DNA of 64,000 nt from Pseudacidovorax sp. RU35E (GTDB lineage: Bacteria; Pseudomonadota; Gammaproteobacteria; Burkholderiales; Burkholderiaceae_C), in assembly GCF_900156165.1 (NCBI RefSeq), contig NZ_FTMY01000006.1:248001-312000 (forward strand). The letters are read 5' to 3'. A model generated the notes under the pieces. That model saw only the letters and a list, made by a program, of their open reading frames with translations. It did not search any database and was not told the origin of the DNA. The position numbers were made by a program, and so were the translations under genes. Every line of letters starts with the position of its first letter. The stretch's first letter is position 1. Shown piece after piece: positions 6,468 to 40,195 of the stretch.

Positions 6468-6629
6468 GCGAGGTAAAAATGACGGACGGGCGGCGATTCT
6501 GCGCTGGCCCCGGCGCCAGAAATATGACAACTCCGAGCGGGTCCAAGGGTTGTTCCCAGCTCGCGCAGGCGCTCGCATGCCTCGGCCCCTTCACCATGAG
6601 GGCAAAGCGAAGTCCTTAGAATCGCACGA

Positions 6630-8416: not shown

Positions 8417-8438
8417 ATTTCGGCAGAAAGACAAGACC

Positions 8439-24327: not shown

Positions 24328-25791
24328 ATGCCTTCCACCACCTCTTTGCCCCTCCGGGTCCTCGTCGTCGACAGCGATGCCGCGGCCCGGGCAGCGCTGT
24401 GCGCGCGCCTTCAGGGCATGGGGCTTCGGGTGCGGCCCGCCGCCGGCATCGGCGAGGCGGCCGCCTGGGCGGGCTCGGGCGTTCCCATCGACGCCCTGAT
24501 GTGGGCGCCCTCGCCGGCCGACGGCGACGCCGGGCGCGCGTGCGCCCGCCTGAGGGCCGCGGACGCATACCTGCCGATCGTGGTGGTGCTCGACGCGCAG
24601 GACGATGCCCAGGCCCTGGCCGTCTTCGCGGCGGGCGCGGACGACCTCGTGCAGGGCGAGCTGGACGATGCGCTGCTCGGCGCACGCCTGGCGCGCCACG
24701 CCCAGCGCGCGGCCATGCTCGGCGCCTGCCGGCGGCAACTGGAGCGCCAGCGCGGAATCCAGGACAACATCGCCGACCCGGTGATCACCGTCGACGACCA
24801 CGGCACCGTGCTGGACCTGAACACGGCGGCCATGCGCCGCTTCGCCGCCCCCGGAGCGGCGGCGCTGGCCGGGCAGCCGCTGGAGGCCGTCATCGGCGCC
24901 GCACCTCGCCAGCTGGCCACCGGAGAGCGCGTCTGGCTGCGCGGCGTCGAGGGGGCAGGCTTCTGGGCCCAGGCCAGTGCCAGCCGGTGGGGCGAAGACG
25001 GCAGCGCCCGCACCACCTGGGTCCTGCGGGACCTGACCGAGACGATGCGCAACGAGCGCATGCACGACGAATTCCTCGCCAGCGTCAGCCATGAGCTGCG
25101 CACGCCGCTGACCTCCATCCTGGGAGCGGTGGGACTGTTGGCCTCGGGGGTGGCCGGTCGCCTGCCGCCCACGGCCGCGCCGCTGGTGGCGGCCGCCCAG
25201 CGCAACGGCGAGCGCCTGAGCAAGCTGATCGACGACGTGCTGGACCTGGCCAAGCTGGAAGGCGACCGCATGACGCTGCAGTGCCGGACCCAGGCCCTGG
25301 CGCCGCTGGCGGGCGAGGCGGTGAGCGCGGCGCAGGCCTATGCCGCGCGCGCCGGCGTCCACCTGCGCCTGCGCTGCCCCGCCAGCACCCCGTGCACCGG
25401 GCGCGGCGTCAGCGTGGACGCGGACCGCCTGCTGCAGGTGCTGGCCAACCTGATCTCCAACGCCATCAAGCATTCGGCACCCGGGCAGACGGTGGTGATC
25501 GAACTCAGCGACGCCGGCGATGGCCAGCGCATTGCGGTCACCGACGAAGGCAAGGGGGTGCCGAAGGACTTCCGCCCCCAGCTGTTCGAGAAGTTCGCCC
25601 AGGCGGGCGAGGGAGACCAGCGCGGCGCCGGCGGCACGGGCCTGGGGCTGCACCTGGCCCGGGTCCTGGTGCAACGCATGGGCGGGCGCATCGGCTATGC
25701 GCCCGGTCCCGGCGAGGTCGGCTCCACCTTCGACGTGTGGTTCCCGGCCGTCGCGGCCTCCAGGCCGGCCCGCGCCAGGGTGGCCCCGTGA
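24328..25791 (+). CDS. Histidine kinase with N-terminal degenerate receiver and PAS domain
   Basis: About 487 residues. A receiver-like domain opens the protein (LRVLVVDSDAAARAAL). Its phosphoacceptor position is not acidic: the beta-3 stretch reads DALMWAPSP with Ala where Asp is expected. This is therefore a pseudo-receiver. A PAS domain (NIADPVITVDDHGTVLDLNT) follows. HisKA has the H-box His near residue 255 (SVSHELRTPLTSI), and the ATPase domain has NLISNAIKHSAPG and GGTGLGLHLA. No TM segments, so it is cytoplasmic. Start: ATG 24328 is chosen; ATG 24307 is possible, and neither has a strong ribosome site. It heads a long operon, and the next gene begins inside its stop (GTGA). Confidence 0.9.
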   Translation: MPSTTSLPLRVLVVDSDAAARAALCARLQGMGLRVRPAAGIGEAAAWAGSGVPIDALMWAPSPADGDAGRACARLRAADAYLPIVVVLDAQDDAQALAVFAAGADDLVQGELDDALLGARLARHAQRAAMLGACRRQLERQRGIQDNIADPVITVDDHGTVLDLNTAAMRRFAAPGAAALAGQPLEAVIGAAPRQLATGERVWLRGVEGAGFWAQASASRWGEDGSARTTWVLRDLTETMRNERMHDEFLASVSHELRTPLTSILGAVGLLASGVAGRLPPTAAPLVAAAQRNGERLSKLIDDVLDLAKLEGDRMTLQCRTQALAPLAGEAVSAAQAYAARAGVHLRLRCPASTPCTGRGVSVDADRLLQVLANLISNAIKHSAPGQTVVIELSDAGDGQRIAVTDEGKGVPKDFRPQLFEKFAQAGEGDQRGAGGTGLGLHLARVLVQRMGGRIGYAPGPGEVGSTFDVWFPAVAASRPARARVAP

Positions 25792-26204
25792 ATCCCGGCC
25801 CCGACGCCGAGGCCGCGCTGCGCCGCGTGATGTGCGTGGAGGACGACGAGGACATCCGCTACATCCTCGACTTCAGCCTGCGCCAGATCGGCGGCTACGA
25901 GGTGTGCGCCGTGGGCAGCGGCGCGGAAGCCCTGGCGACCGCCCCCGGCTTCCGGCCCGACCTCGTGCTGCTCGACGTCATGATGCCGCAGCTGTCCGGG
26001 CCGCAGACGCTGGAGCAGTTGCGCCAGCAGCCCGGCATGGCCGGCGTGCCGGTGGTCTTCCTCACCGCCAAGGCGATGCCGGAGCAACTGGAGGACCTGC
26101 TGTGCCACGGGGCCACCGGCGTGATCGTCAAACCCTTCGACCCGGTACGGCTGCCGCAGGACATCCGCATGTACTGGGAGCACGGCCGTGGAAACCGAGC
26201 CTGA
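25788..26204 (+). CDS. Single-domain response regulator
   Basis: A 138-residue receiver-only protein. The acidic pocket is VMCVEDDEDIRYIL and the phosphoacceptor is Asp63 in LVLLDVMMPQLSG; Lys is in VIVKPFDPVRL. No output domain. Its GTG start overlaps the stop of the preceding kinase gene by 4 bp, and the Hpt gene starts before its own end. Kinase, receiver and Hpt protein therefore form a likely phosphorelay. Its target is not visible from sequence. Confidence 0.9.
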   Translation: MNPGPDAEAALRRVMCVEDDEDIRYILDFSLRQIGGYEVCAVGSGAEALATAPGFRPDLVLLDVMMPQLSGPQTLEQLRQQPGMAGVPVVFLTAKAMPEQLEDLLCHGATGVIVKPFDPVRLPQDIRMYWEHGRGNRA

Positions 26205-26526
26205 GCGCGCAGGCGCGGCGTATGCGGCGCTGCGCGGCCGTTTCCTGGATGGCCTCGGCGCGCGCCGGGCCGCGATCGTCGAGGCGGCCGACGAGGCCAG
26301 CCGCCTCGACGCCCTGCACCGCCTGGCCGGCGCTGCCGGCAGCTACGGCTTTGCGGCACTGGGCGAGCTGGCACGGCGGGCCGAGGCCGCCCGCACCCCC
26401 GGCGATATGCACAGCGCCCTCGCGTCGCTGACCTGCGCCATCGACGCACTGACAGGCGCCGCCCCCCAAGGAGACAACACGTCATGGAAATCAGCAGCCG
26501 GGACGCCGGATCCGACGTCGTCGTGA
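26188..26526 (+). CDS. Hpt domain protein
   Basis: A 112-residue histidine phosphotransfer-type protein. The phosphorylatable His is likely His44 in DALHRLAGAAGSYGFAALGE; the usual H-x-L-K-G has Ala in place of Lys. The GTG start overlaps the preceding receiver gene by 17 bp, and its 3' end overlaps the STAS gene by 43 bp. The last 20 residues look like read-through of that overlap rather than a folded region. In context it would relay phosphate between the nearby kinases and receivers. Confidence 0.8.
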   Translation: METEPERAGAAYAALRGRFLDGLGARRAAIVEAADEASRLDALHRLAGAAGSYGFAALGELARRAEAARTPGDMHSALASLTCAIDALTGAAPQGDNTSWKSAAGTPDPTSS

Positions 26527-26825
26527 TCGCCCTGCGCGAGGCCAACCTCGACGCCAGCAACGTGCGCGAATTCAAGGAGGCGGTGCAGGCCCTCGTCGGC
26601 CCGGCGGCCACCCGCGTCGTGTTCGACCTCGAGGGCGTCAAGTTCATCGACAGCTCCGGCCTGGGCGCGCTCATCTCCTGCCTGCGCCAGCTCAATGCGC
26701 GACGCGGCGACCTGCGGCTGTGCAGCCTCACGCCCACCGTCCAGGCGCTGCTCGCATTGATGCGCATGAACCGCGTGTTCCAGATCCACGCGGACCCGCA
26801 GGATGCCGTGGCGTCGTTCGACTGA
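26484..26825 (+). CDS. STAS-domain anti-sigma-factor antagonist
   Basis: A 113-residue SpoIIAA/RsbV-type protein. The phosphorylation motif is FIDSSGLGAL with Ser57 (first Ser after Asp) in the position of SpoIIAA Ser58. Family members bind a switch kinase/anti-sigma factor when unphosphorylated. They are phosphorylated by an RsbW-type ATPase and dephosphorylated by a SpoIIE/PP2C phosphatase. Both activities are present in the next gene, which overlaps it by 23 bp. The ATG is preceded by AAGGAG. No sigma factor is encoded nearby. Confidence 0.93.
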   Translation: MEISSRDAGSDVVVIALREANLDASNVREFKEAVQALVGPAATRVVFDLEGVKFIDSSGLGALISCLRQLNARRGDLRLCSLTPTVQALLALMRMNRVFQIHADPQDAVASFD

Positions 26826-29800
26826 GCCCGATCCCGCGGCGCCCGAGGCCGCGCTGGAGCGGGCGCTGCGCCGTCGCGAGCAGCAGCTGCGCTGGGTCGG
26901 CTGGCTGGTGGCCGTGGCGGTGCTGCTCACGCTCGCCGCGCGCATGGTCCAGGCCTGGCACGGCCTGCGCGACGAGGCGCAGGAGCACGTGCGGCTCCAT
27001 GCCCGGGCGCTGACGCGGCTGGTGGCGGCGAGCGTGGAGCCGGCACGTGCGGCCACGCAGGCCCTGGCGGCCGACACGCAGCAAGCCTCCACCCCCGTGC
27101 CGGATGCCGCGGCAGGCGGCGCGGCCATGCCGATGGTCTTCGCCCTCGACCCGCAGGGCCGGCTGCTGGCCGACCCGGCCGCGGCACCGCTGCCCCTGCC
27201 CGGACTGGCGCTGCCGGACGCGACCGCCTGCGATCCCTGCCTGGCCGGCCGGATCGCGCCCGACCGGCTTGCGCCGGCCATGGCCGCCCGCGCGCCCGGC
27301 GACGCGATGGCGCTGATGCAGCCGCTGCGGGAGGGCCGGGGCTGGGCCGTCGCCTTGCTGCCGGCGCGCCCCCTGGATCTGTTGATCGATGCCTTGGCCG
27401 AGGAGCGCGGCGACTGGGCCGTGCTGCTCGGCGCCCAGGGCCAGGTGCTCGCCGCGAGCGCGGCGGCACCATGGAGCGCCGGGGCGACCGCGGGGCCGCT
27501 GGCCGATGACGACCTCTTCGCCGACGAAGCGCTGCCGACGCTGGGCGTCGTGGTGCGCGTCGTGCAGCCCCATGCGCCGTTGATTCGCCGGCTGCCCGGG
27601 CAGCTGCGGGTGGGCGCGGCCCTGACCCTGATCACGCTCGCGATCGTGCTGGTGGCCCTGCGTGCCCTGCGCAGCAGCATCGCCAGCCAGCGCAGGGCCC
27701 GCGCAGCGCTGGCGCGCCTGCATGCCCAGGGCGAGCAGCGCACCCAGCGTTGGCGCCGCGCCCTGGCCGCCTCGGGCGACGCCTTGTGGGAATGGCGTCT
27801 GCCCCACGGCCGGGTGGACCTCAGCGAGCGCTGGGCCGCGATGCGCGGCGAGGCGGCCGCAGAGAGGCGCTACGACAGCGACGAATGGCTCGCGCTGCTG
27901 CATCCCGACGACCGCCGCACGCTGCAGGCGCAGCTCGAGCGCCACCTGCGCCGCGAACTGGCCAGCCTGCATTGCGAGGCGCGGGTGCGCTGCACCGACG
28001 GCCGCTGGAAATGGCTGCTGCTGCGCGGCGTGGCGCTGACGGTGGTGCGCGGCGACCAGGAAGCCATGCATGTGCTGGGCTTCGTCACCGACATCGCCGA
28101 CCAGCGCGCCAACGAGGCCGCCCTCAGCGATGCCCAGGCGCGGCACCAGGCCGTGCTGGACAGCGCGCTGGACGCCGTCATCACGGCGGACGCACGCGGG
28201 CGGGTGGTGGACTTCAACCCGGCCGCCGAGCGCATGTTCGACCTGCGCCGTGAACAGGCGTTGCACCATCCCATCCACCGGCTGCTGGCCCCCGGTGAAG
28301 CGCGGAAGGCGATGCGCCGCCGCGTGATGCATGTCCTGCGCGGCGCCGGCGCCGGTGTGCATGCGGGCGGGCGCATCGACGTGATGGCGGTGCGCACCGG
28401 CGGCGAGCATTTCCCGGTCGAGGCGACCGTGGTCGCGGTGCGCGCCGGCACGCAGACGCTGTTCACCGCCACCATGCGCGACATCTCTGAGCAGCGGCGG
28501 GTGGAGCACGCGCTGCGCGACAGCGAGGTACGGGCACGGGCCACCTTCGAGCAGGCGGCCGTGGGCATCTTCCTGCTCGACGAGCGGCAGCGGCTGGTGC
28601 GGGTCAACCAGACCCTGTGCCGCCTGCTCGGGCGCAATGCCTCGACCCTGCTGGGCCTGCCGCTGCGCAGCCTGCTGCACCCCATGGACGCTCCGGACGT
28701 GATGCAGGGCACGACGAGCCTGTTCACCGGCACCCGGCCGAGCCTGCGGCTGGAGGCGCGACTCACCCGGGCCACCGGTCGGCCCCTGTGGGTGCGCCTC
28801 ACGGCCTCGCTGGCGCATGACGACCGGGGCGGCGTGCTCTACATGATCGGCATCGTGGAGGACATCGAGGAGCAGCGCCAGCACCGCGAGGATCTGCGCG
28901 CCGCACGGCAGTTGGAGGTGATGATCAGCGCGCGCATCCAGGCCTCGCTGCTGGTGGCCGCCCCGGCGGTCGAGCTGCCGGGCCTCTGGCTGAGCAGCTT
29001 CAACCATGCCTCGCAGGACATCGACGGCGACTTCTTCGAGGTGATGCGTCCGGGGCCGCGCTGCGTCGACCTGATCGCGGGCGACGTGATGGGCAAGGGC
29101 GTGAACGCGGCCCTGCTGGGCGCCGCCGTGAAGATGCAGTTCAGCCGCTCGCTGGTCGAACTGATGATGCAGCCGGCCGCGCGGCATGCCACGCCCGAGC
29201 CGGCGGCCATCCTCGACGCGGTGCATGCGGCGATGACGCCACACCTGCAGGCGCTGGAGACCTTCGTCACCCTCGCCTACGTGCGCATCGACCTGGACCG
29301 CGGGCTGCTGACCTGGTGCGGCTGCGGCCATGAGGAGGTGATGCATGTGGGCCCCGCGGGCACCGTCGCGCTGCTGCGCAACCAGCATCCGCCGCTGGGC
29401 GTCCTGGCCGACACGCGCTTCACCCAGGAAAGCCGTCCCGTGGCGCCCGGCGATGCGCTGCTGCTGCATTCGGACGGGCTGTGCGATGCGCGCCGGCGCG
29501 ACGGCGAGCGTGTGGGCGTGGACGAGGTGCATGCCGCCTTCCGCCGGCTGGCCTGGTGCCACGACACGCCCGCCGCCATGCTGCACCGCATGCGCCAGCA
29601 GCTGCTCACGGGCACCGTGCTGACCGACGACGTCACGCTGGCCACGGTGCGGGTGTTCGACGCGCAGCAGGACGTGCACCGCATCGAGCTGCCGGCCGAG
29701 CCGCAGGCCCTGGGCGCCCTGCGCGCCCTGGTGGACCGCGGCCTGGCCGAAGCGGGCCAGACCGGCGCCGCCAGCGGCCTGTTCACGGTGGCCGTGGTCG

Positions 29801-30171
29801 AGGCCTTCACCAACATCGTGCGCCACAGCCGTGGCGCGTTGCCGCAGGCGCCGGTCGAGGCGGTGCTGCGCCGCCTGCCTGCCGCCCTGGAGGTGGACCT
29901 GATCCACATCGGCGAGCCCTACGCCCCGCCCGAGGACGAGGCGCTGACGAACTTCGACGAATACCCCGAAGGTGGCTTCGGCCTGACCATCATCCGCAAG
30001 GCCTGCGACCGTGTGGACTACCTGCACAGCGACGGCGTGAGCACCGTGCGCCTGAGCCGTTGGCTCGACACCCCGCCCGCCGACGCGAGTTTGCAATCCA
30101 GTCACGATCTGGCCATGCCTGGAGCCGTCCAATCCGGGGATCCCTCCGCGCTACACATCCTGCCCGCATGA
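26803..30171 (+). CDS. Membrane PAS-SpoIIE phosphatase with C-terminal RsbW-type ATPase domain
   Basis: A 1122-residue regulator. A TM segment (about residues 32-49), an extracytoplasmic region of around 220 residues and a second TM (270-289) form the sensor. Three PAS domains follow, starting near 317, 448 and 578. The PP2C/SpoIIE domain begins near residue 705, with metal-binding DIDGDFFEV (near 740), GDVMGKGVNAALL, LHSDGLCDAR (near 889) and DDVTLATVRV (near 943). The tail (about 960-1085) is a HATPase_c domain of the RsbW/SpoIIAB type with VVEAFTNIVRHS and GGFGLTIIRKACD. Phosphatase and kinase for the STAS antagonist are thus in one protein. The last 30 residues are unstructured. Confidence 0.92.
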   Translation: MPWRRSTEPDPAAPEAALERALRRREQQLRWVGWLVAVAVLLTLAARMVQAWHGLRDEAQEHVRLHARALTRLVAASVEPARAATQALAADTQQASTPVPDAAAGGAAMPMVFALDPQGRLLADPAAAPLPLPGLALPDATACDPCLAGRIAPDRLAPAMAARAPGDAMALMQPLREGRGWAVALLPARPLDLLIDALAEERGDWAVLLGAQGQVLAASAAAPWSAGATAGPLADDDLFADEALPTLGVVVRVVQPHAPLIRRLPGQLRVGAALTLITLAIVLVALRALRSSIASQRRARAALARLHAQGEQRTQRWRRALAASGDALWEWRLPHGRVDLSERWAAMRGEAAAERRYDSDEWLALLHPDDRRTLQAQLERHLRRELASLHCEARVRCTDGRWKWLLLRGVALTVVRGDQEAMHVLGFVTDIADQRANEAALSDAQARHQAVLDSALDAVITADARGRVVDFNPAAERMFDLRREQALHHPIHRLLAPGEARKAMRRRVMHVLRGAGAGVHAGGRIDVMAVRTGGEHFPVEATVVAVRAGTQTLFTATMRDISEQRRVEHALRDSEVRARATFEQAAVGIFLLDERQRLVRVNQTLCRLLGRNASTLLGLPLRSLLHPMDAPDVMQGTTSLFTGTRPSLRLEARLTRATGRPLWVRLTASLAHDDRGGVLYMIGIVEDIEEQRQHREDLRAARQLEVMISARIQASLLVAAPAVELPGLWLSSFNHASQDIDGDFFEVMRPGPRCVDLIAGDVMGKGVNAALLGAAVKMQFSRSLVELMMQPAARHATPEPAAILDAVHAAMTPHLQALETFVTLAYVRIDLDRGLLTWCGCGHEEVMHVGPAGTVALLRNQHPPLGVLADTRFTQESRPVAPGDALLLHSDGLCDARRRDGERVGVDEVHAAFRRLAWCHDTPAAMLHRMRQQLLTGTVLTDDVTLATVRVFDAQQDVHRIELPAEPQALGALRALVDRGLAEAGQTGAASGLFTVAVVEAFTNIVRHSRGALPQAPVEAVLRRLPAALEVDLIHIGEPYAPPEDEALTNFDEYPEGGFGLTIIRKACDRVDYLHSDGVSTVRLSRWLDTPPADASLQSSHDLAMPGAVQSGDPSALHILPA

Positions 30172-31697
30172 ACATCGCCCTCCTCGAAGACGACCCCGAC
30201 CAGCGGGACCTGGCCGCGCTGTGGCTGAGTCACGGCGGCCACCAGGTGACCAGCTTCGCCAGCACCGGCGAGCTCATCCGCGAGCTTGGGGCGCGCCGCT
30301 ATGACCTGCTGGTGCTGGACTGGATGCTTCCGGACGGCACCGGCGGCGACGTGCTGAGCTGGCTGCGCAACCGCCCGGGCGTGCAGCCGCCGGCCATCGT
30401 GCTGACCTCGCGCGACGAAGAGGCGCAGGTGGTCGAAGGCCTGAACTGCGGCGCCGACGACTACCTGGTCAAGCCCGCCCGGCCGGCGGAACTGCTGGCC
30501 CGCATCAGCGCGCTGGCGCGGCGCACCCGCACCCGCGGACCGCAGGTGCTGGAGCTCGGCGGCTACCGGGTCGACCTGGTTCAGCACCGCATCAGCATCG
30601 ACGGCACCCCCGCCGAGCTGACGCAGAAGGAATTCGACCTGGCCGTGTACCTGTTCCAGAACCCAGGCGTGCTGCTGTCCCGCGAGCATCTGCTGAACCG
30701 GGTGTGGGGCAAGACGGCGGACGTCACCACCCGCACCGTGGACACCCACGTGAGCCGGCTTCGGCGCAAGCTGCGGCTGGACGGACAGCGCCCGCTGCGT
30801 CTCACGCCGGTGTACGGGCAGGGCTACCGGCTCGACGCCCTCGAGACCGCGGCCCCGGCGCAGGCCGATGGCCCCGCTCGCGCAGGCACGCCCGGCGTGA
30901 CCACCGAGGTTGCGGACGTGGACTGCCCGGACGAGTGCCTGCCGGCGACGCTGCAGGCCGAGGAAGGTGCGGGCTCCGACGACGTGCCGCCCCCCGGCCT
31001 CGACTGCTGCGCGCTTGCCGAGACCGACGGCGGTCCGGTCGAGCCGCGCGAAGTGCTCGACCACCTGGCCCGCGCCGCACGCTTTCGCGACGGCGAAACC
31101 GCCGCGCACATGGTGCGGGTGGGCTTCCTCGCCTGGGCGCTGGCGCTGGCCGCCGGCTGCAGCCCCGAGGCCGCCCTGCTGCTGCGGCAGGCCGCGCCGA
31201 TGCACGACGTCGGCAAGATCGGCGTGGCCGACGCGCTGCTCAAGTACCCGGGTCGCTTCTCGTCGGACCAGCACCGGCAGATGGAGGCGCACACCCTCAT
31301 CGGCGCCGAGATCCTGGGCGGCTCGGAGCTGCCGCTGCTGCGCCTGGCGGCGGAGATCGCGCTGACGCACCACGAGCGCTGGGACGGCACCGGCTACCCC
31401 CGCGGGCTGCAGGGCAGCGCCATCCCGCTGCCGGGCCGCATCACGGCGCTGGTGGACTTCTATGACGCCCTGGCCAGCGAGCGCCGCTACCGCGCCCGCA
31501 TGCGCCCGGCCGAGGTGCTGAAGCTGCTGCAGGATCAGAGCGGTGCCGCCTTCGACCCGGCGCTGGTGGACCTGTTCGTGCGCCACGGCGCGCAGATGGT
31601 CCAGCTCAGCGACCAGGTGATGATGCACGGCCTGGGTTTCGAATCGCTGTCCGATCCGGCGGTGATGGCCTTCGTCCCGCTGCCTGCACCTCACTGA
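30168..31697 (+). CDS. Receiver - OmpR-type winged helix - HD-GYP fusion protein
   Basis: 509 residues with three recognisable domains. The receiver (1-120) has LLEDDPDQRDL, Asp51 in LLVLDWMLPDGTGG and Lys in YLVKPARPAEL. The DNA-binding domain (about 128-226) is OmpR/PhoB type: LTQKEFDLAVYLFQNPGVLL, then TRTVDTHVSRLRRKL and YGQGYRLDA. An acidic Ala/Pro linker of about 70 residues follows. The HD-GYP domain (about 295-480) has HD at 346-347 (MHDVGKIGV) and HHERWDGTGYPRGL at 401-414, so it looks catalytically intact for cyclic-di-GMP hydrolysis. Receiver-HD-GYP proteins (RpfG type) are common; an intervening OmpR DNA-binding domain is unusual. ATGA overlap with the phosphatase gene. Confidence 0.93.
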   Translation: MNIALLEDDPDQRDLAALWLSHGGHQVTSFASTGELIRELGARRYDLLVLDWMLPDGTGGDVLSWLRNRPGVQPPAIVLTSRDEEAQVVEGLNCGADDYLVKPARPAELLARISALARRTRTRGPQVLELGGYRVDLVQHRISIDGTPAELTQKEFDLAVYLFQNPGVLLSREHLLNRVWGKTADVTTRTVDTHVSRLRRKLRLDGQRPLRLTPVYGQGYRLDALETAAPAQADGPARAGTPGVTTEVADVDCPDECLPATLQAEEGAGSDDVPPPGLDCCALAETDGGPVEPREVLDHLARAARFRDGETAAHMVRVGFLAWALALAAGCSPEAALLLRQAAPMHDVGKIGVADALLKYPGRFSSDQHRQMEAHTLIGAEILGGSELPLLRLAAEIALTHHERWDGTGYPRGLQGSAIPLPGRITALVDFYDALASERRYRARMRPAEVLKLLQDQSGAAFDPALVDLFVRHGAQMVQLSDQVMMHGLGFESLSDPAVMAFVPLPAPH

Positions 31698-31799
31698 AGC
31701 CCAGGCCGACGGCCGATACAGCCGGTCGCCCGCCGAGGAAACGCAAGCAAAAGAGGCGTCGGCTGACAGGGGCGTTGTCAACGTTTTCCTACAATTTTT

Positions 31800-31836
31800 G
31801 ACGCTCCCATCTTCGATTCCAACAACCGGGAGCGTC
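31800..31836 (+). promoter_or_regulatory. Leader hairpin upstream of rsbR
   Basis: A perfect 9-bp inverted repeat, GACGCTCCC at 31800-31808 and GGGAGCGTC at 31828-31836, with a 19-nt loop. It lies 18 bp before the rsbR start and just after an A+T-rich stretch with TACAAT (31790-31795), a possible -10. No -35 at normal spacing was found. It may be an operator or an mRNA leader structure. The 31698-31853 gap holds no gene. Confidence 0.5.
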
Positions 31837-31853
31837 TTATCGAGGGCCCCTCC

Positions 31854-32699
31854 ATGAACCAGCAGATCGCGGCCCTTGTCCGTGTCCTGCGCGACGATCC
31901 GACCGCCGTGGTCGAGGATTGGTTGCGCGCATTGCAGGCCACGCAGGGTGTGCTCCACGCCAGTGCCAAGGCCGAGGCGGCCGCCATCGTCGACGACCTG
32001 CGCGCCGGCCTGGAGACCGGCGCCGATGCCGAATCCCTGCAGGGTGCGGGCTGGCAGCGGTTGCGCAGCACGCTCGAGCAGCTGTCGGCCAGCCGCGCCG
32101 CGAAGGGCGACTCGGCCGGCTCGACCAGCGTCTTCGTGCTCGCGCTCAAGAAGCCGCTGTTCGACCGGCTCCAGCTGGCGCTGGCGCAGGACCCGGCCGC
32201 CCTGGGCGGCGCGCTGTGGGCGCTGTCCGCGCTGGTCGACCGCCTGGCGCAGCACACGGCCGACACCTTCCAACAATCGCGCGAGGAAGTCATCCGCCGC
32301 CAGCAGGAGGACCTGCTCGAACTCTCCACCCCCGTGGTCAAGCTGTGGGACGGCGTCCTGGCCGTGCCCATGATCGGCACCCTGGACAGCAACCGCACCC
32401 AGGTCGTCATGGAGACGCTGCTGCAGACCGTGGTGGACACCGGCTCGTCGCTGGCCATCATCGACATCACGGGCGTGCCCACCGTGGACACGCTGGTGGC
32501 CCGCCACCTGCTCAAGACCGTCACGGCCATCCGCCTGATGGGCGCGGACTGCATCATCAGCGGCATCCGCCCGCAGATCGCACAGACCATCGTGCACCTG
32601 GGCATCGATCTGCAGGGCATCGTCACCAAGGCCACGCTGGCCGACGCCCTGGCACAGGCCCTCAAGACCAGCGGCTGGCGCATCAGCCGCGAGGCCTGA
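31854..32699 (+). CDS. rsbR: Stressosome protein RsbR (N-terminal sensor plus STAS)
   Basis: 281 residues. The N-terminal half (1-150) is helical and variable like the RsbRD/globin-like sensor part, beginning NQQIAALVRVLRDDPTAVVE. The C-terminal STAS domain has LLELSTPVVKLWDGVLAVP, IIDITGVPTVDT (Thr206/210/213) and SGIRPQIAQTIVHLGI (Thr245). These hold the threonines that RsbT phosphorylates in B. subtilis RsbR; exact residue correspondence was not fixed. With RsbS it would form the cytoplasmic stressosome that holds RsbT. It heads the rsbR-rsbS-rsbT-rsbX run, 6 bp before rsbS. Confidence 0.95.
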   Translation: MNQQIAALVRVLRDDPTAVVEDWLRALQATQGVLHASAKAEAAAIVDDLRAGLETGADAESLQGAGWQRLRSTLEQLSASRAAKGDSAGSTSVFVLALKKPLFDRLQLALAQDPAALGGALWALSALVDRLAQHTADTFQQSREEVIRRQQEDLLELSTPVVKLWDGVLAVPMIGTLDSNRTQVVMETLLQTVVDTGSSLAIIDITGVPTVDTLVARHLLKTVTAIRLMGADCIISGIRPQIAQTIVHLGIDLQGIVTKATLADALAQALKTSGWRISREA

Positions 32700-32705
32700 A
32701 CCCCT

Positions 32706-33086
32706 ATGGACCGCATCCCGATCCTGCGCATGGGCCAGACCCTGCTGGTCACCATCCAGATCGACCTGCAGGACCAGACCGCCATGGCACTGCAGGACGA
32801 CCTGGCCAACCGCATCGCGGCCACCGGCGCCACCGGCGTGCTGATCGACATCTCGGCACTGGAGGTGGTCGATTCCTTCATCGGCCGCATGCTCAGCACC
32901 ATCTCCGGCACGGCCGCCATCCTCTCGGCCACCGCGGTGGTGGTGGGCATGCAGCCGGCCGTGGCCATCACCCTCGTCGAGCTGGGCCTGTCGCTCGACG
33001 GCGTGCGCACCGCGCTGGACGTGGAGCGCGGCATGGCCCTGCTCGACCGGCTGCGCGCCCAGCAGGGAGTCCGCCTTGGCGCCTGA
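32706..33086 (+). CDS. rsbS: Stressosome scaffold protein RsbS
   Basis: A 126-residue single STAS protein. The key motif [18 protein letters not shown] places Ser57 where B. subtilis RsbS has its RsbT-phosphorylated Ser59. The start [20 protein letters not shown] is typical of RsbS. It scaffolds the stressosome with RsbR and releases RsbT when phosphorylated. It overlaps the rsbT start by 11 bp. Confidence 0.96.
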
Positions 33087-33480
33087 CCCCACTGGCACCC
33101 TGCCGCTGGCCAGCGAGCAGCACATCGTCGCCAGCCGGCAGACAGTGCGCGCCCTGTGCCAGGAACTGCGCTTTTCGCTGGTGGAGCAGACCAAGATGGT
33201 CACGGCCGCCAGCGAGCTGTCGCGCAACACGCTGATCCACGGGGGCGGCGGCCGCATGCACTGGGCCGTGCTGCAGGAAGGCGTGCGCCGCGGCCTGCAG
33301 CTGCGCTTCGAGGACGAAGGGCCCGGCATCGCCAACATCGACCTCGCCATGTCCGACGGCTACACCTCCGGCGCCGGCATGGGCCTGGGCCTGCCGGGCA
33401 GCAAGCGTCTGGTCCACGAGTTCGACATCCGCTCCACGCCCGGCCAGGGCACCTGCGTGAGCATCGTGAAGTGGAAGTGA
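33076..33480 (+). CDS. rsbT: Serine/threonine switch kinase RsbT
   Basis: A 134-residue HATPase_c kinase of the GHKL family. The N-box is [15 protein letters not shown], then [15 protein letters not shown] and [15 protein letters not shown]. In B. subtilis it phosphorylates RsbS and RsbR, then leaves the stressosome to activate the RsbU phosphatase. The start is a TTG at 33076 with GGGAG seven bases upstream, inside the end of rsbS. There is no rsbU next door; the SpoIIE phosphatase at 26803 or another partner may be the target. Confidence 0.95.
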
Positions 33481-34493
33481 TCCGCGGCTGGACGCACCGC
33501 GCGTTCCCCATCGAAGACCTGAGCTTCGTCGGCGAGGCCCGGCGCCATGTGGCGCGCCTGACCGCCGAGCGCGGCTGGCCAGAGCACGACGCCGCCCGCG
33601 CCGCCCTGGTGGCCACCGAGCTGGGCACCAACCTGGCCAAGCATGCGCAGGCCGGCCAGCTGCTGGTGGCCGCGCGCGACGCGCCGGGCGACATCGAACT
33701 GATCGCCGTCGACCGCGGGCCGGGCATGCCCGACCTGGCACGCTCGCTGCGCGACGGCTTCTCCACCACCGCCACCGCCGGCACCGGCCTGGGCGCCATC
33801 GCCCGGCAGAGCGAGCTGTTCGACCTCCATTCGGCGCCCGGCCTGGGCACCGTCTGCCTGGCCCGCGTGCGGCCCCGCACGGCCGAGGCCGCCACCCTCG
33901 TGACGGACGCCTTCGACTGGGGCGCCGTGTGCGTGCCGGTGCGCGGCGAGACCGCCTGCGGCGACGCCTGGATGCTGGCTTTCGAGGGCCATCGCGCCGC
34001 GGCCGTGCTGGCCGACGGACTGGGCCATGGGCCCGACGCGCAGGTCGCCGCCCAGGCGGCGCTGGAAGGCTTTGCCAGCCGGCCTTTCGACGATGGCGCG
34101 GCCACGATGCAGCGCATGCACGAGCGGCTGCGCACCACCCGCGGGGCAGCCGTCTTCGGCCTGTGGATGGACGGGGAGGAGGCATTGCGCTACACGGGGG
34201 CCGGCAACGTGGCCGGCCGGCTCATCTCGGGCACGGCCGACCAGTCCCTGGCCACCGCCCACGGCACGCTGGGCCTGCAGGTGCGTCGCTTCGACCTCGC
34301 CGCCGCCAAGCGGCCGCCGCACGCCCTCGCGCTGCTGCACAGCGACGGCGTGCAGACCCGCTGGCCCGGCAATGCCCTGGCACCGCTGCTCGCGCGCGAC
34401 CCCACCCTGCTGGCGGCGCGCATCTTCTGCGACTACGCACGCGGACGCGACGATGCCTGCATCGTGGTGCTGCGACCCGGAGAGCGCCCATGA
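33477..34493 (+). CDS. ATP-binding SpoIIE-family phosphatase (RsbX-like with N-terminal HATPase)
   Basis: 338 residues in two domains. The N-terminal HATPase_c domain (1-135) has ALVATELGTNLAKHAQAG, DRGPGMPDL and GTGLGAIARQ, like RsbT/RsbW. The C-terminal PP2C/SpoIIE domain (about 145-335) has AVLADGLGHGPDAQVAA, LLHSDGVQTRW and DDACIVVL. Classical RsbX is only the phosphatase part and dephosphorylates RsbS and RsbR; the ATPase extension is characteristic of many proteobacterial homologues. GTG 33477 overlaps the rsbT stop (GTGA); GTG 33471 is also in frame. Confidence 0.93.
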   Translation: MIRGWTHRAFPIEDLSFVGEARRHVARLTAERGWPEHDAARAALVATELGTNLAKHAQAGQLLVAARDAPGDIELIAVDRGPGMPDLARSLRDGFSTTATAGTGLGAIARQSELFDLHSAPGLGTVCLARVRPRTAEAATLVTDAFDWGAVCVPVRGETACGDAWMLAFEGHRAAAVLADGLGHGPDAQVAAQAALEGFASRPFDDGAATMQRMHERLRTTRGAAVFGLWMDGEEALRYTGAGNVAGRLISGTADQSLATAHGTLGLQVRRFDLAAAKRPPHALALLHSDGVQTRWPGNALAPLLARDPTLLAARIFCDYARGRDDACIVVLRPGERP

Positions 34494-35398
34494 GCGGCAG
34501 CAACGATCCCATGGCGCCCAACACGCTGCAGCAGCGCCTGCAGGCCGCCGAGGCCGAAGTGGCCCAGCTGCGCGCCGAGCTGGAGGAGACCAACCGCGGT
34601 GTCGTGGCGCTCTATGCCGAGCTGGACGAGCAGGCCATCGCCCTGAAACGGGCCACCGAACTCAAGAGCCGCTTCCTGGCGTACATGAGCCACGAATTCC
34701 GCACGCCCGTCAACGCCATCCGCAGCATCGCGCGGCTGATGAGCGACGAGGTGGACGGACCGCTCACCGAGGAGCAGCGCCGGCAGGTGCAGTTCATCCA
34801 GACCTCGGCGCGCGAATTCGCCGAAATGGTCGACGACCTGCTGGACCTTGCCAAGATCGAGGCCGGTCGGGTGGACATCTCGCCGGCCTGGTTCGAGATG
34901 GTCGACCTGTTCTCGGCGCTGCGCGGCATGTTCCGGCCCATGCTCGAGAACCAGGAGGTCACCCTGGCCTTCGAGGAGCCCGCCGACCTGCCGCGGCTGT
35001 ACACCGACGACCGCAAGCTCTCGCAGATCCTGCGCAACTACGTGTCCAACGCCCTCAAGTTCACTCCCAGGGGCGAAGTGCGGGTGGCCGCGTGCCGCAT
35101 CGGTGAGGACCGGGTGCGCTTCTCCGTCAGCGACACCGGCATCGGCATCGCGCGCGAGCACCAGGCGGCCGTGTTCGACGACTTCGCGCAGGTGGATTCG
35201 CCGGTGCAGAAGCGCCTGCGCGGCACCGGCCTGGGCCTGGCGCTGTGCCGGCAGCTGGCTGGCCTGCTCGGCGGCGAGGTGGGGGTGGACAGCGAACTCG
35301 GCCGTGGCTCCACGTTCTGGCTCACGCTGCCGGTCCAGCTGCCCGGTGCCCGCGTCAGCGATGCCGCACGGGAGGCCGGATGGAAGGCGCCGGCGTGA
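34490..35398 (+). CDS. Cytoplasmic sensor histidine kinase
   Basis: 302 residues with no TM segment. The N-terminal 60 residues form a coiled coil with heptads (LQQRLQAAEAEVAQLRAELE). HisKA has its phosphorylated His at about residue 68 (YMSHEFRTPVNAI). The ATPase domain has RNYVSNALKFTPRG, DTGIGIAREH and GTGLGLALCRQLAG. It starts within the stop of the RsbX-like gene (ATGA). It is the type of kinase found downstream of RsbRSTX in several proteobacteria, where it is thought to be the output of the stressosome; that role is inferred here from position. Confidence 0.92.
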   Translation: MSGSNDPMAPNTLQQRLQAAEAEVAQLRAELEETNRGVVALYAELDEQAIALKRATELKSRFLAYMSHEFRTPVNAIRSIARLMSDEVDGPLTEEQRRQVQFIQTSAREFAEMVDDLLDLAKIEAGRVDISPAWFEMVDLFSALRGMFRPMLENQEVTLAFEEPADLPRLYTDDRKLSQILRNYVSNALKFTPRGEVRVAACRIGEDRVRFSVSDTGIGIAREHQAAVFDDFAQVDSPVQKRLRGTGLGLALCRQLAGLLGGEVGVDSELGRGSTFWLTLPVQLPGARVSDAAREAGWKAPA

Positions 35399-37371
35399 TC
35401 CAGAGCACCATCGACCGCGGCGCCCACCGCATCCTGGTGGTGGACGACCATCCGACCACGCGCTATTCGACCGCGCGCACGCTGCGCGCCGCCGGCTTCG
35501 CCACGGAAGAGGCCGGCACCGGCGGGCAGGCGCTCGAGCTTGCCACCGAGGGCATGTCGGCGCTGGTGCTGGACGTGCACTTGCCCGATGTGGATGGCTT
35601 CGAGGTGTGCCGGCGCCTGCGCGAGGACCCGCGCACCGCCAGCCTGCCGGTGATCCACCTGTCGGCCACCTTCGTGCACGACCGGGACAAGGTCGCCGGA
35701 CTGAATGCGGGCGCCGATGCCTACCTCGTGCACCCGGCCGAGCCGGCGGTGCTGGTGGCCACGCTGCAGGCGCTGATCCGCGCCCGCAGTGCCGAGGACC
35801 GTCTGCGCCAGAGCGAGAGCCGCTTCCGCGCCATCTACAACCAGGTGCCCGACGGCATGGCGCTGCTCGATGCGACCGGCCGGCTGGACGATGTGAATCC
35901 GGCCCTCGCCACGCTGCTCGGGCGGGCACCCGACACCCTGCCCGGAATGCAGCTCGACGCCCTGGCGCCCGCGGACACCGCGGCCCAGGTGCGCGCATTC
36001 ATCGCCCAGGCCGCAGTCGGTCATGGCGGTCAGGCGGGCAGCGTCTGGCGGGCCGAATTCCCGCTGCTGCACGCCCACGGCCACGAAGTGCCGCTGGCCT
36101 GGAGCCTCTCGCCGCATGGCCCCACCGGCCTGCTGGTGGCGGTGGCCGTCGACATCTCCGAACGGCTGGCGCTGGAGCGGGCACGCCAGGAACTGCTGGA
36201 GCGCGAGCAGGCCGCGCGGGCCATGGCCGAGCGTCACAGCCGCACCAAGGACGACTTCGTCGCCGTGCTCTCGCACGAGCTGCGCACGCCGCTCAATGCC
36301 ATCAGCGGCTGGGTGCACATCCTGCAGAAGCATGGGGGGCGGCCCGACCTGATGGGCAAGGCGCTGGACGCCATCGGCCGCAGCGTCAAGGCCCAGAGCC
36401 GGATCATCTCGGACATCCTGGACGTCTCGCGCGTGAATGCCGGCAAGCTGCGGCTGCACCGCGAATGGACCGACCCGGTGGAGCTCACCCATGCGGCCAT
36501 CGACGCGCTGAAGGAGGACGTCGCGGCCCGCTCGCTGCGCGTGCTGCCGCATGCCGACGAGGACGCCCACCGCAGTGCCTGGCTCGATCCGACCCGCTTC
36601 CAGCAGATCGTGTGGAACCTGCTGAACAACGCGATCAAGTTCTCGGCCAACGGTGGCCGCATCGATGTGACGCTGCGGCGCGAGGCCCACCACCTGACGC
36701 TGGAGGTGCAGGACCAGGGCAAGGGCATCGCGCCGGACTTCCTGCCCCACCTGTTCGACCGCTTCGCGCAGAGCGACGGGCCCGACAACCGCCAGCACGG
36801 CGGCCTGGGCCTGGGCCTGTCGATCGTCAAGCGCCTGGCCGAACTGCATGGAGGCGCCGTGCAGGCCTTCAGCGAGGGCGAAGGCCGTGGAGCCCGGCTG
36901 GTGGTGCAACTGGACGTGGCCCCCGAAGAGGGCGCCGACGCCAGCGCCGAGCGGCCCTTGCCCGAGGTGACTGCGGCGGCCGGCCGCGACCAGCCGCTGC
37001 TGGGCCTGCAGGTGCTGGCGGTGGAGGACAACCCCGACGCCGCCGAGATGCTGCAGGTGGTGCTGCACGAGGCCGGCGCCCAGGTGCGCGTGGTGCACGA
37101 CCACGACAGCGCCCTCGCCGCCCTGCGTGCGCAATGGCCCGACCTGATGGTCAGCGACGTCGGCCTGCCCGGCCGCGATGGCTACGAGCTGGTGCGCGCG
37201 CTGCGCCGCACCGAGGCCGCCGAAGGCCGGGCCCGCACCCGCTGCGTGGCGCTCACCGCCTTCTCGCGCCCGCAGGACCGCGAGAAGGCGCTCGAGGCCG
37301 GCTTCGACGCGCATGTGTCGAAGCCGCTGGACACGCACACGCTGCTGGCGGCGTTGCGAGCAGGCGGCTGA
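35380..37371 (+). CDS. Hybrid histidine kinase: receiver - PAS - kinase - receiver
   Basis: 663 residues. An N-terminal receiver has Asp65 in LVLDVHLPDVDG and RILVVDDHPTTRYS. A PAS domain (about 145-265; FRAIYNQVPDGMALLDATG) is next. HisKA has the His near residue 299 (VLSHELRTPLNAI), and the ATPase domain has WNLLNNAIKFSANGG and GGLGLGLSIVKRLAELHGG. A C-terminal receiver has Asp593 (LMVSDVGLPGRDG). Both receivers keep the acceptor Asp. Start: ATG 35380 preceded by GGAGG, overlapping the upstream gene by 19 bp; GTG 35395 (GTGA overlap) is an alternative. It is the last gene of the signalling cluster. Confidence 0.92.
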   Translation: MEGAGVIQSTIDRGAHRILVVDDHPTTRYSTARTLRAAGFATEEAGTGGQALELATEGMSALVLDVHLPDVDGFEVCRRLREDPRTASLPVIHLSATFVHDRDKVAGLNAGADAYLVHPAEPAVLVATLQALIRARSAEDRLRQSESRFRAIYNQVPDGMALLDATGRLDDVNPALATLLGRAPDTLPGMQLDALAPADTAAQVRAFIAQAAVGHGGQAGSVWRAEFPLLHAHGHEVPLAWSLSPHGPTGLLVAVAVDISERLALERARQELLEREQAARAMAERHSRTKDDFVAVLSHELRTPLNAISGWVHILQKHGGRPDLMGKALDAIGRSVKAQSRIISDILDVSRVNAGKLRLHREWTDPVELTHAAIDALKEDVAARSLRVLPHADEDAHRSAWLDPTRFQQIVWNLLNNAIKFSANGGRIDVTLRREAHHLTLEVQDQGKGIAPDFLPHLFDRFAQSDGPDNRQHGGLGLGLSIVKRLAELHGGAVQAFSEGEGRGARLVVQLDVAPEEGADASAERPLPEVTAAAGRDQPLLGLQVLAVEDNPDAAEMLQVVLHEAGAQVRVVHDHDSALAALRAQWPDLMVSDVGLPGRDGYELVRALRRTEAAEGRARTRCVALTAFSRPQDREKALEAGFDAHVSKPLDTHTLLAALRAGG

Positions 37372-37451: not shown

Positions 37452-37775
37452 ATGGGCTTTTCAGCCAGCGACGTCGTGCCTTTCACCCAGGCACGCGCCA
37501 ACCTCTCGGAGCTGGCCGACCAGGCCAAGGCCGGTGCCGAGAAGATCATCACCAAGAATGGTGAAAGCTACGTCGCACTCATCGACGCCGACCGACTGGA
37601 CTACTACCACCGCCTGGAGCGCGAGCGCATCCACCTGCTGCTGATCGACGATGCCCGACGCGGCATCGCCGACATCGAGGCCGGCCGCACCTACGGTGCT
37701 GACGCGGCCATCGCACAGCTTCAGCAGCGCCGTGGGGCCGCCCCCATTGGCAAGGTTGCCAAGAGACGTGGCTGA
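37452..37775 (+). CDS. Phd/YefM-family antitoxin
   Basis: A 107-residue antitoxin. The N-terminal Phd fold is VVPFTQARANLSELADQA followed by KIITKNGESYVALIDADRLD, the usual DNA-binding part. The C-terminal 50 residues are charged and likely wrap the toxin (GIADIEAGRTYGADAA). AAGGAG lies six bases before the ATG. Toxin and antitoxin genes overlap by 8 bp. The antitoxin neutralises the ParE/RelE-fold toxin and probably represses the pair through the palindrome upstream. Confidence 0.9.
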   Translation: MGFSASDVVPFTQARANLSELADQAKAGAEKIITKNGESYVALIDADRLDYYHRLERERIHLLLIDDARRGIADIEAGRTYGADAAIAQLQQRRGAAPIGKVAKRRG

Positions 37776-38169
37776 GGATCTGTACCAGGTCGAACTGACC
37801 GCGAGCTTCCTTGAGCGGCTGGACGCCATCGAGGCCTTTCTGGCCGAAGCCGATGCGGCATTCGCCTTCGATGATCTGCTGGCCGGGCTGCGTTCGACGG
37901 TCATCCCCAATCTAGCCCGGTTCCCGCGCATCGGCAGGCGCTACGTGGACAACCCGCCGCAGTCTGCCGAAGCACTGGCCCAACTCGCAGCGCTGCCGGC
38001 CGGCGCAGCCAGCGCTCTGCGCGAGTACCTGCATGGCGATTACTTGATGCTCTATACCGCGATGGAGGTCAGTGCGACGGTCCATCTTCTGTCCATTCGA
38101 CACCACCGCCAGCTTTCATTCGACTTCGCCCGCCTGTGGCCGGGCGCCAACCCGCAGGAGCGGCGCTGA
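37768..38169 (+). CDS. RelE/ParE-fold toxin
   Basis: A 133-residue protein of the RelE/ParE superfamily. Visible are LYQVELTASFLERLDAIEAF, VIPNLARFPRIGRRYVDN and the C-terminal HLLSIRHHRQLSFDFARLWP, where an R/H-rich strand is the usual active-site edge. Family members block translation or gyrase; which applies is not evident. GTG 37768, inside the antitoxin's last codons, gives the best length; AAGAGA lies just upstream. The pair is complete with no disruption. Confidence 0.85.
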   Translation: MAEDLYQVELTASFLERLDAIEAFLAEADAAFAFDDLLAGLRSTVIPNLARFPRIGRRYVDNPPQSAEALAQLAALPAGAASALREYLHGDYLMLYTAMEVSATVHLLSIRHHRQLSFDFARLWPGANPQERR

Positions 38170-38224
38170 GCGCCTATATCCGCTCTCTACCAAGTCCTGT
38201 CACACCATTTAAACGAGCAACCCC

Positions 38225-39139
38225 ATGGCTGAGATCACCCGCCGCCGTACCGGCGAATTTCTACGTGAGCTGTTCAGCATCCTCATGGCCGCACCGGAGG
38301 GCATGCGCGCGAGTGACGCCCTCCAGCAACTTGCTAGCCGCGTCACCTTGTCGGCCTACGAGGCAGACAGCTATCCATCCGGCGGGCGCCGCTTCGAGAA
38401 GATCGTCCGCTTCGCCACGGTCGACTGCGTCAAGGCTGGCTGGTTGGTCAAGGACAAGGGCATCTGGACCCTCACCGAGGCAGGCCAGGCGGCGCATGCA
38501 GAACTGCCGGACCCCGAGGCCTTCTACAAGCGCGCCTGCAAGTTGTACGCGGAATGGAAAGCTGCGCAGCCCGAGGCGGAAGGCAACGCTGCCGAGGTGG
38601 CGGCGGCCGTGAGCGCAGTGGACGATGTGGACAACAACGCCAAGGCGGCGAGCGTCACCTTCGACGAGGCCGAAGAGCAGGCTTGGGCGGAGGTGTCGCA
38701 GTACCTGCGCGCAATGAATCCCTACGACTTCCAGGAACTGGTGGCCGATCTGTTGCGTGCCATGTCGTACCACGTCGCCTGGGTGTCGCCGCCCGGCAAG
38801 GATGGTGGTGTGGACATCCTGGCCTGGCCTGATGCGCTGGGCACGCGCCCGCCACGCATCAAGGTTCAGGTGAAGAGGCAACTGCAGGCGGTCAGCGTCG
38901 AAGGCTTGAGGTCTTTCATGGCCGTGTTGGGTGATGACGACGTTGGCCTGTTCGTCTGTACCGGCGGTTTCACAAAGGACGCCGAAGCCGAGGCGCGCAC
39001 GCAGGAGAAGCGACGCATCACCTTGATCAGTCTTGAAAAGCTGTTCGATCTGTGGGACGAGCACTACGACAAGCTGACCGACAGGGCCCGACGCCGGCTG
39101 CCCCTGCGCTCGATCCGGTTTCTGGCCCCGGGCGGTTGA
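38225..39139 (+). CDS. mrr: Mrr-type restriction endonuclease
   Basis: A 304-residue two-domain protein. The N-terminal winged-helix Mrr_N part (to about residue 100) reads RRTGEFLRELFSILMAAPEG. The C-terminal Mrr_cat nuclease has FQELVADLLRAMSYH, catalytic Asp197 in GGVDILAWPD and the Q-x-K element Gln215/Lys217 (KVQVKRQ), so the PD-(D/Q)xK core is intact. Such enzymes usually cut modified DNA. It follows the toxin-antitoxin pair and precedes the rhuM-like gene, a typical defence-islet setting. The codons are somewhat less G+C-rich than in neighbouring genes. Confidence 0.9.
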   Translation: MAEITRRRTGEFLRELFSILMAAPEGMRASDALQQLASRVTLSAYEADSYPSGGRRFEKIVRFATVDCVKAGWLVKDKGIWTLTEAGQAAHAELPDPEAFYKRACKLYAEWKAAQPEAEGNAAEVAAAVSAVDDVDNNAKAASVTFDEAEEQAWAEVSQYLRAMNPYDFQELVADLLRAMSYHVAWVSPPGKDGGVDILAWPDALGTRPPRIKVQVKRQLQAVSVEGLRSFMAVLGDDDVGLFVCTGGFTKDAEAEARTQEKRRITLISLEKLFDLWDEHYDKLTDRARRRLPLRSIRFLAPGG

Positions 39140-39157
39140 GCCGACAGGGGAGCATGC

Positions 39158-40195
39158 ATGAAGAACACCGTCCCTTTCGTTCCTGGCGAGTTCCTGCTCT
39201 ACGAGACCGAAGACGGTCGTACACGGGTGGAATGCCGGTTTGTCGATGACACCTTGTGGCTGTCGCAGGCGGGCATGGCCGATCTGTTCCAGACGAGCAA
39301 GCAAAACATCGCCAAGCACCTCAAGGCCATCTTTGCCGAGGGGGAACTGGCTGCCGATTCAGTTGTCAACCGCTGGTTGACAACTGCGGCCGATGGCAAA
39401 GCCTACCGGGTGGCGCACTACAACCTCGACGCGATCCTGGCTGTGGGCTACCGGGTGCGCTCTCAGCGCGGCACGCAGTTCCGCCGCTGGGCAACCGAGC
39501 GCCTGAGCGAGTACCTGGTGAAGGGCTTTGTGCTCGATGACGAGCGCCTGAAGAACCCGCCTGTGGGCAGCTCAGCTGTGCCGGACCGCTTCGACGAGTT
39601 GCTTGAGCGCATCCGTGACATCCGGGCCAGTGAGCGCCGCATGTACCTGCGGGTGCGCGAGATTTTTGCCATGGCGGCCGATTACTCGCCGTCGCTGCCC
39701 GAAACCACCCAGTTCTTCCAGTCCATCCAGAACAAGCTGCACTTCGCCGTCACGGGCAAGACGGCGGCTGAGTTGATCGCGCAGCGTGCCGACAGCCACG
39801 CCCCGAACATGGGGCTCACTACCTGGAAGTCGGGCAGCGTGCAGAAGTCCGATGTGAAGGTGGCCAAGAACTACCTGCAGGAAGCTGAAGTCGGCGAACT
39901 GAACCGCGTTGTGACGATGTGGCTGGACTTCGCTGAAGACCAGGCGCGCCGACGCAAGGAGGTCTTCCTGAAGGACTGGGCGGAAAAGCTGGACGCGTTC
40001 CTCAAGTTCAACGAGCGTGACGTGTTGGACGGGCCGGGACGGGTGTCGAAGAAGCAAGCCGACGCCCACGCGGAAGCGCAATACGAAGCCTTTGCGGCCC
40101 AGCGCCGCGCCTTGCTTGAAGCCGAGGGCGCCGACGCCAACGTGCGCGCCCTGGAAGCGGCAGCCAAGGCACTGCCCAGGCCTGGCAAAAGGTGA
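39158..40195 (+). CDS. rhuM: RhuM family protein
   Basis: A 345-residue protein of the RhuM (virulence_RhuM) family, first named from Salmonella SPI-3; its biochemical function is not established. Recognised by LWLSQAGMADLFQTSKQNIA near residue 32 (an HTH-like module), HYNLDAILAVGYRVRSQRGT and FRRWATERLSEYL. It often occurs near restriction systems and on islands. The ATG follows GGGGAG closely. 18 bp separate it from mrr, so both are likely cotranscribed. Confidence 0.88.
   Translation: MKNTVPFVPGEFLLYETEDGRTRVECRFVDDTLWLSQAGMADLFQTSKQNIAKHLKAIFAEGELAADSVVNRWLTTAADGKAYRVAHYNLDAILAVGYRVRSQRGTQFRRWATERLSEYLVKGFVLDDERLKNPPVGSSAVPDRFDELLERIRDIRASERRMYLRVREIFAMAADYSPSLPETTQFFQSIQNKLHFAVTGKTAAELIAQRADSHAPNMGLTTWKSGSVQKSDVKVAKNYLQEAEVGELNRVVTMWLDFAEDQARRRKEVFLKDWAEKLDAFLKFNERDVLDGPGRVSKKQADAHAEAQYEAFAAQRRALLEAEGADANVRALEAAAKALPRPGKR

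Follow-up and report, generated by a model that had tools for sequence, protein, structure and literature searches.

A stressosome module and a partner-switch module adjoin in Pseudacidovorax and are distributed separately among sampled genomes

Twelve plus-strand open reading frames, A to L, span positions 24328-37371 of a 64-kb stretch of Pseudacidovorax DNA (the window) and place a stressosome next to a partner switch and phosphorelay proteins. We consider it probable that they form two separately distributed signalling modules lying side by side, rather than one pathway, and that the stressosome signals to its own kinases, K and L. Module 1 comprises A-F (24328-31697) and module 2 comprises G-L (31854-37371; Table 1). 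This reading is carried by the gene content, the domains, the separate distribution of the modules in the samples and a conserved block before rsbR.

An earlier note on this DNA had described the twelve genes as a single system, and its description of the locus holds in most respects. All twelve frames are open, and 9 of the 11 junctions are overlaps of 4-43 bp, the others being gaps of 156 bp (F-G) and 6 bp (G-H). Pfam bears out the domain list, save that J, listed as RsbX-like, is not a plain RsbX, as an ATPase domain precedes its PP2C domain. No sigma factor lies within the twelve genes, as the note had said, and a sigma-free stressosome thus stands beside a partner-switch set. The 5.69-Mb host genome encodes 10 proteins that match sigma-70 region 2 (RpoD, RpoH, FliA and seven of the extracytoplasmic function (ECF) type), with neither RpoS nor SigB among them. 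We infer the enzyme activities of both modules, and the motif strings read in all twelve proteins are taken to be catalytic or phospho-acceptor sites.

Distribution of the two modules

Of 250 genomes sampled from the family, 30 contained RsbS (counted from 43% identity upwards) and 12 matched the C-terminal part of E (E-value no higher than 1e-40); five genomes had both, and two, both Pseudacidovorax, had them on the same contig. These counts exclude 5 of 35 RsbS-bearing genomes whose matches were all remote, and 7 weaker matches among 19 to E; with G116 (a 10-kb contig) also set aside, 29 rsbS loci remained, including the window. Seven of the 12 genomes with E gave no RsbS match. D and E are both present in G028, G245 and G051, again with no RsbS match, and three Azohydromonas genomes (G052, G168 and G246) carry RsbS and E on different contigs. 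Conversely, 27 of the 29 rsbS loci have rsbR-S-T-X without A-F, and 24 include a K-type kinase bearing the linker motif described below. Among the 399 genomes sampled from the order (thresholds 1e-30 for E and 1e-10 for RsbS), 5 had E and 18 had RsbS, and the window genome was the only one with both. Three of these 18 (G000, G088 and G190) were already covered and G630 was left out; 10 of the 14 loci taken in hold a K-type kinase with the linker motif. Because this kinase follows the stressosome in so many family and order loci, a phosphorelay output of the stressosome is likely.

Module 2 also occurs in a plasmid collection, from which 9 loci were chosen among 79 matching records, several of them very large records labelled plasmid. 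R-S-T-X stands directly before a K-type kinase in eight, from Variovorax (2), Xanthomonas, Caballeronia, Deinococcus (2), Nonomuraea and Embleya; the exception, locus L246, lacks R-S-T-X. The gene after K varies, an L-like hybrid kinase being clear in some loci and partial in others. Locus L240, at 3327-8746 of the 29-kb Xanthomonas vasicola plasmid pXVH29, carries R-S-T-X-K together with a hybrid kinase resembling L (32%); module 2 may therefore be mobile.

Seen from module 1, a genome-collection scan with an alignment of E C-termini gave 515 loci, of which the best 80 comprised 3 from Pseudacidovorax and 77 others. By score thresholds of our own setting, D was called in 58 of these 77, A, B and D together in 18, and an F-type receiver with a winged helix-turn-helix (REC-wHTH) in 15. 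Neither rsbS nor rsbR was found in any of the 77, of which 33 hold at least 6 kb of downstream and 5 kb of upstream sequence.

The joint order was found only in Pseudacidovorax among the samples examined. In a sample of 15 genomes of this genus, 9 have RsbS and 6 have E. A-L stand in order in five (the window, G177, G256, G259 and G260); G253 is consistent with the same order, the locus there being divided between a contig that stops within E and one that starts within F. The flanking genes of the joint-locus genomes are mostly syntenic too (a ParE-like gene was not found in G259), so the shared order alone is no proof of a functional bond.

A promoter-like block, [GC]GCTGACA-N21-TANANT, starts 91-114 bp before rsbR in all nine Pseudacidovorax genomes with rsbR, three of which lack E and module 1 (G071 and G254 are identical here). 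None of 38 rsbR loci taken from plasmid records and other genera has it; several gene starts in this set were estimated from alignments. Shuffled sequences gave 0.005 loci per set of 47 for this pattern, which was set after the alignment was viewed. The conserved block suggests that rsbR has its own transcription start; a scan of the F-G gap found no intrinsic terminator. The rsbR leader also contains a perfect 9-bp stem (31800-31836; fold z -2.97), partly kept, by eye, in some relatives with module 1; the changes do not look compensatory, and we claim no role for it.

The two halves also appear to differ in history in G260. In a comparison by 500-bp tiles, identity between G260 and the window runs at 96-100% as far as about 29 kb and then falls sharply to 70-96%, the change lying inside E near 29000-29500 (L116/L141); the 4-kb rpoD region is 92% identical. 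This would reflect an exchange of the left half between species or else a chimeric metagenome contig.

Several observations weigh against a clean separation of the modules. Every one of the six Pseudacidovorax genomes that carry E carries RsbS as well, five of them with the two modules still adjacent. The five family co-occurrences compare with 1.4 expected (30 x 12 / 250), a plain product, and come from two genera. Because adjacency is stable in the genus and co-occurrence exceeds the product of frequencies, local cross-talk between the modules may occur. Full flanks are missing from 44 of the 77 E loci outside the genus, so the absence of rsbS is best judged in the 33 that have them. G260 is a metagenome bin, and its breakpoint may be an assembly chimera. 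The spacing of 21 bp between the halves of the rsbR block is unusual, and a consensus scan found no sigma-70 promoter in the F-G gap. Finally, an HD-GYP domain on F was found only where the two modules adjoin.

Stressosome output and the linker of kinase K

Solved structures of homologues match both RsbR and RsbS, in which the phospho-site regions are preserved. The DSFI string of RsbS, aligned with 6jhk, presumably holds the phospho-serine, and both regions of what we take to be the conserved RsbR threonines are retained in the structure-homologue alignment. RsbT (I) is a GHKL protein by Pfam, with a weak structure match (7e-4) to SpoIIAB-type chains. J directly follows the RsbT gene, overlapping I by 4 bp, and has a GHKL ATPase domain (residues 15-128) followed by PP2C at 23.6 bits, against a Pfam cut-off of 25. 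In the proposed cycle, RsbR and RsbS would hold RsbT; upon stress, RsbT would phosphorylate both and leave, and J would reset the stressosome by dephosphorylating it. Once free, RsbT would act on the linker of K, as might the ATPase domain of J, and K together with hybrid kinase L would pass the signal into a His-Asp relay.

K begins with a predicted helix in which residues E30, T34, N35, G37, A40, L41, E44, A49, L52, A55 and K59 show no variation across 33 sequences, nor do those around the phospho-histidine; in a wider K set some linker residues vary, for example at locus L243. Elsewhere in the genome the best match to the linker reaches 38% identity; it lies at G000:C10:226171-226410 in a 1204-aa open frame. 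Among 48 motif-bearing frames from 75 loci scanned, 17 also encode an RsbT-like domain ahead of the linker, 10 of these with E-values of 1e-25 or lower. Pfam confirms the RsbT-K fusion in one Deinococcus radiodurans plasmid protein annotated as a single gene. The linker was not found in the three remote RsbS loci L237-L239, which do not enter the family and order counts. A single-sequence model of K (mean predicted local distance difference test score 53) was confident only for the N-terminal helix 11-40 (block means 88-94) and was not used.

RsbT reportedly contacts RsbU at its N-terminal domain and linker (PMC12143880). A profile search run with speed filters, and admitting E-values up to 5, matched RsbU_N to none of E, I, J and K. 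It is a possibility, somewhat short of even, that the near-invariant TNRGVVALYAEL linker of K serves as a docking site for free RsbT or the J ATPase, with no RsbU_N involved, making this a switch from stressosome to His-Asp phosphorelay in which part of the family has fused the RsbT-like domain to the linker. We infer an action of RsbT or J on the linker from conservation and fusions, and this basis in sequence comparison is a point against the idea. So does the match of fusions L243 and L245 to RsbT over only about 45 residues. Several fused loci come from one genus, so that the 17 are fused frames and may represent fewer independent fusion events.

The K linker with its RsbT-like fusions offers a concrete place to look for how stressosomes signal in bacteria without SigB. 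In the available part of PMC9237108 (section 10), RsbU_N went undetected in the majority of the downstream proteins considered, and an interaction between VvRsbT and VvD1 could not be demonstrated. A literature search that missed most subscription journals found no published account of the linker or its RsbT fusion; it also returned no publication on a Pseudacidovorax stressosome, a single review on RsbT in Deinococcus and, for partner switching joined to Hpt and c-di-GMP, a single mycobacterial paper.

Stressosomes tied to two-component genes and c-di-GMP (cyclic di-GMP) without SigB have been published (PMC10014275, PMC9237108, PMC4976288), and the locus is a variation on published kinds of system in which the K linker is one testable lead. 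The nearest parallel is RsbRSTX-D1/D2 of Vibrio vulnificus, where rsbR-S-T-X likewise precedes kinase and receiver genes without SigB, and for which the accessible text already proposes phosphorelay and c-di-GMP outputs (PMC10014275, PMC9237108). The Vibrio RsbR has a globin sensor, as described there, where G has RsbRD_N; its RsbX is a single-domain protein (PMC9237108), unlike the ATPase plus PP2C of J, and the downstream genes here are K and L. The Bacillus subtilis sigB operon shares homologues of RsbR, RsbS and RsbT (described in part in PMC9237108), whereas the Pseudacidovorax genome has no SigB, E, I, J and K lack RsbU_N matches, and D and E do not follow the stressosome across genomes. 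Moorella thermoacetica likewise couples a stressosome to an output without a sigma factor, a diguanylate cyclase, but the contact described in the portions at hand runs through an RsbU N-terminal domain (PMC4976288, PMC12143880), which E, I, J and K did not match.

Module 1, its HD-GYP domain and alternative readings

The N-terminus of A is receiver-like by eye, with no Pfam match to Response_reg. Ser57 of D is invariant in an alignment of 10 sequences, and the structures nearest to D by sequence are TM1442 and SpoIIAA. Hydropathy shows two hydrophobic segments in E, starting at residues 28 and 266, so E is probably membrane-bound; Pfam found no receiver in it. By sequence, the PP2C part of E is nearest to 3es2 and 3eq2 (both named two-component response regulator) and to Rv1364c, and its ATPase part to RsbW. 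3eq2 is grouped with 3f7a, which the available text calls RssB (PMC12143880). D and E look like a self-contained partner switch, in which the RsbW-type domain of E would phosphorylate D and the PP2C domain would dephosphorylate it. A, B and C would constitute a His-Asp relay, and F a DNA-binding response regulator that gained a putative c-di-GMP hydrolase domain, HD-GYP, in this genus.

The target of this putative switch admits an alternative that is compatible with the two-module reading. It is possible, though on balance doubtful, that module 1 works like the Pseudomonas aeruginosa HptB-HsbR-HsbA system, with D or the E ATPase controlling FlgM/FliA or an ECF sigma factor. As far as the accessible text describes that system (PMC6482189), both have an Hpt protein, a STAS protein, and PP2C and kinase/anti-sigma domains in one chain, and the host genome encodes FlgM and FliA. 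However, E has PAS domains and hydrophobic segments where HsbR has a receiver, the A/B relay is separate, and neither flgM nor a cyclase gene, of the HsbD type or otherwise, is among the twelve. RpoS as a target of E is ruled out in this genome, being absent from the 10 sigma-70-type proteins. Our best guess for the output of module 1 is FlgM/FliA; flgM and fliA lie close together at G000:C13:258494-260113, a possible target. Rv1364c of Mycobacterium tuberculosis (3ke6) also unites PP2C and RsbW-type domains in one chain. Its STAS domain is fused in the same chain, while D is a separate gene.

F is 509 aa long in the window and 512-519 aa in four relatives, and its HD and HHExxDGxGYP motifs are what we take to be the signature of HD-GYP phosphodiesterases. 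The domain is missing from F of G253, which stops after the wHTH, and from all 14 homologues outside the genus (226-238 aa), a hand-picked subset of the F matches. By parsimony the c-di-GMP link would thus be recent and not core to either module. Our literature search found no publication on HD-GYP joined to Trans_reg_C. A further alternative is that, once the modules adjoined, F (or B/C) came to be phosphorylated by L or K, directing the stressosome output to the new HD-GYP domain in this genus only. The confinement of the domain to five joint-locus genomes, the several receivers and the Hpt protein close by, and the conserved flanks and order would all fit. Yet the joint locus seems to be present in G253, where F lacks HD-GYP, a relay is already provided by A, B and C, and the sequence offers no support for cross-phosphorylation, so that we regard this integration as unlikely.

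A single joint system, in which RsbT would activate the PP2C of E, the signal would pass through E and D, and F would alter c-di-GMP, fits the domain set, the order kept in five Pseudacidovorax genomes and consistent in a sixth, and the excess co-occurrence in the family, but is rejected as highly improbable on distribution, since in the samples the halves lie apart outside the genus. Also against it, D and E occur in genomes without an RsbS match, RsbU_N was not matched in E, kinases of its own accompany module 2, and the promoter-like block precedes rsbR. The co-occurrence search that the earlier note proposed has given the result it named as speaking against a joint system, the halves being separate outside Pseudacidovorax in the samples examined, and its single system finds no support. 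Its view that the stressosome acts through phosphorylation stands as likely, with a K-type kinase as the route. Its further proposals fare worse: the antagonist, phosphatase and kinase set as a stressosome target is opposed by E lacking RsbU_N and by the separate distribution of D/E and rsbS, and c-di-GMP turnover as an output by the absence of HD-GYP from F of G253 and of the 14 homologues examined outside the genus. The case for two modules thereby warns against inferring one pathway from adjacency within one genus.

Features of the locus and its flank

Table 1 Features of the twelve-gene region (window coordinates)
Feature	Coordinates	Strand	Evidence
A, histidine kinase, module 1	24328..25791	+	Pfam HisKA 9.4e-19, HATPase_c 9.2e-27
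B, stand-alone receiver, module 1	25788..26204	+	Pfam Response_reg 2.6e-25
C, Hpt protein, module 1	26188..26526	+	Pfam Hpt 1.1e-5, 26.0 bits vs cut-off 24.6
D, STAS anti-sigma-antagonist-type protein with Ser57, module 1	26484..26825	+	Pfam STAS 2e-17
E, PAS repeats-SpoIIE(PP2C)-HATPase_c_2 (RsbW-type), module 1	26803..30171	+	SpoIIE 6.8e-35, HATPase_c_2 2.5e-15
F, REC-Trans_reg_C(wHTH)-HD response regulator, module 1	30168..31697	+	Pfam; 4mcw 4.6e-47
HD domain part of F	31101..31565	+	Present in five Pseudacidovorax genomes
Promoter-like block upstream of rsbR, [GC]GCTGACA-N21-TANANT	31761..31795	+	Alignment of rsbR loci
G, RsbR, RsbRD_N-STAS, module 2	31854..32699	+	Pfam; RsbR-type structures, best 1.6e-32
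H, RsbS, STAS, module 2	32706..33086	+	RsbS structure 6jhk 4.5e-31
I, RsbT-type GHKL kinase, TTG start, module 2	33076..33480	+	Pfam GHKL ATPase
J, GHKL ATPase + PP2C, RsbX position, module 2	33477..34493	+	HATPase_c_2 1.2e-9, SpoIIE 5.4e-5
K, short histidine kinase HisKA-HATPase, no predicted membrane segment, module 2	34490..35398	+	Pfam
K linker, residues 27-66, near-invariant, before phospho-histidine domain	34568..34687	+	Alignment, 33 sequences
L, hybrid kinase REC-PAS-HisKA-HATPase-REC, module 2	35395..37371	+	Pfam

Beyond L, positions 37651-40195 hold a ParE-like toxin gene, an Mrr-type endonuclease gene and a RhuM-family gene. In the stretches taken from relatives, RhuM recurred in none and Mrr only in G256, where it occupies two frames, a patchiness that indicates that this segment varies between species.

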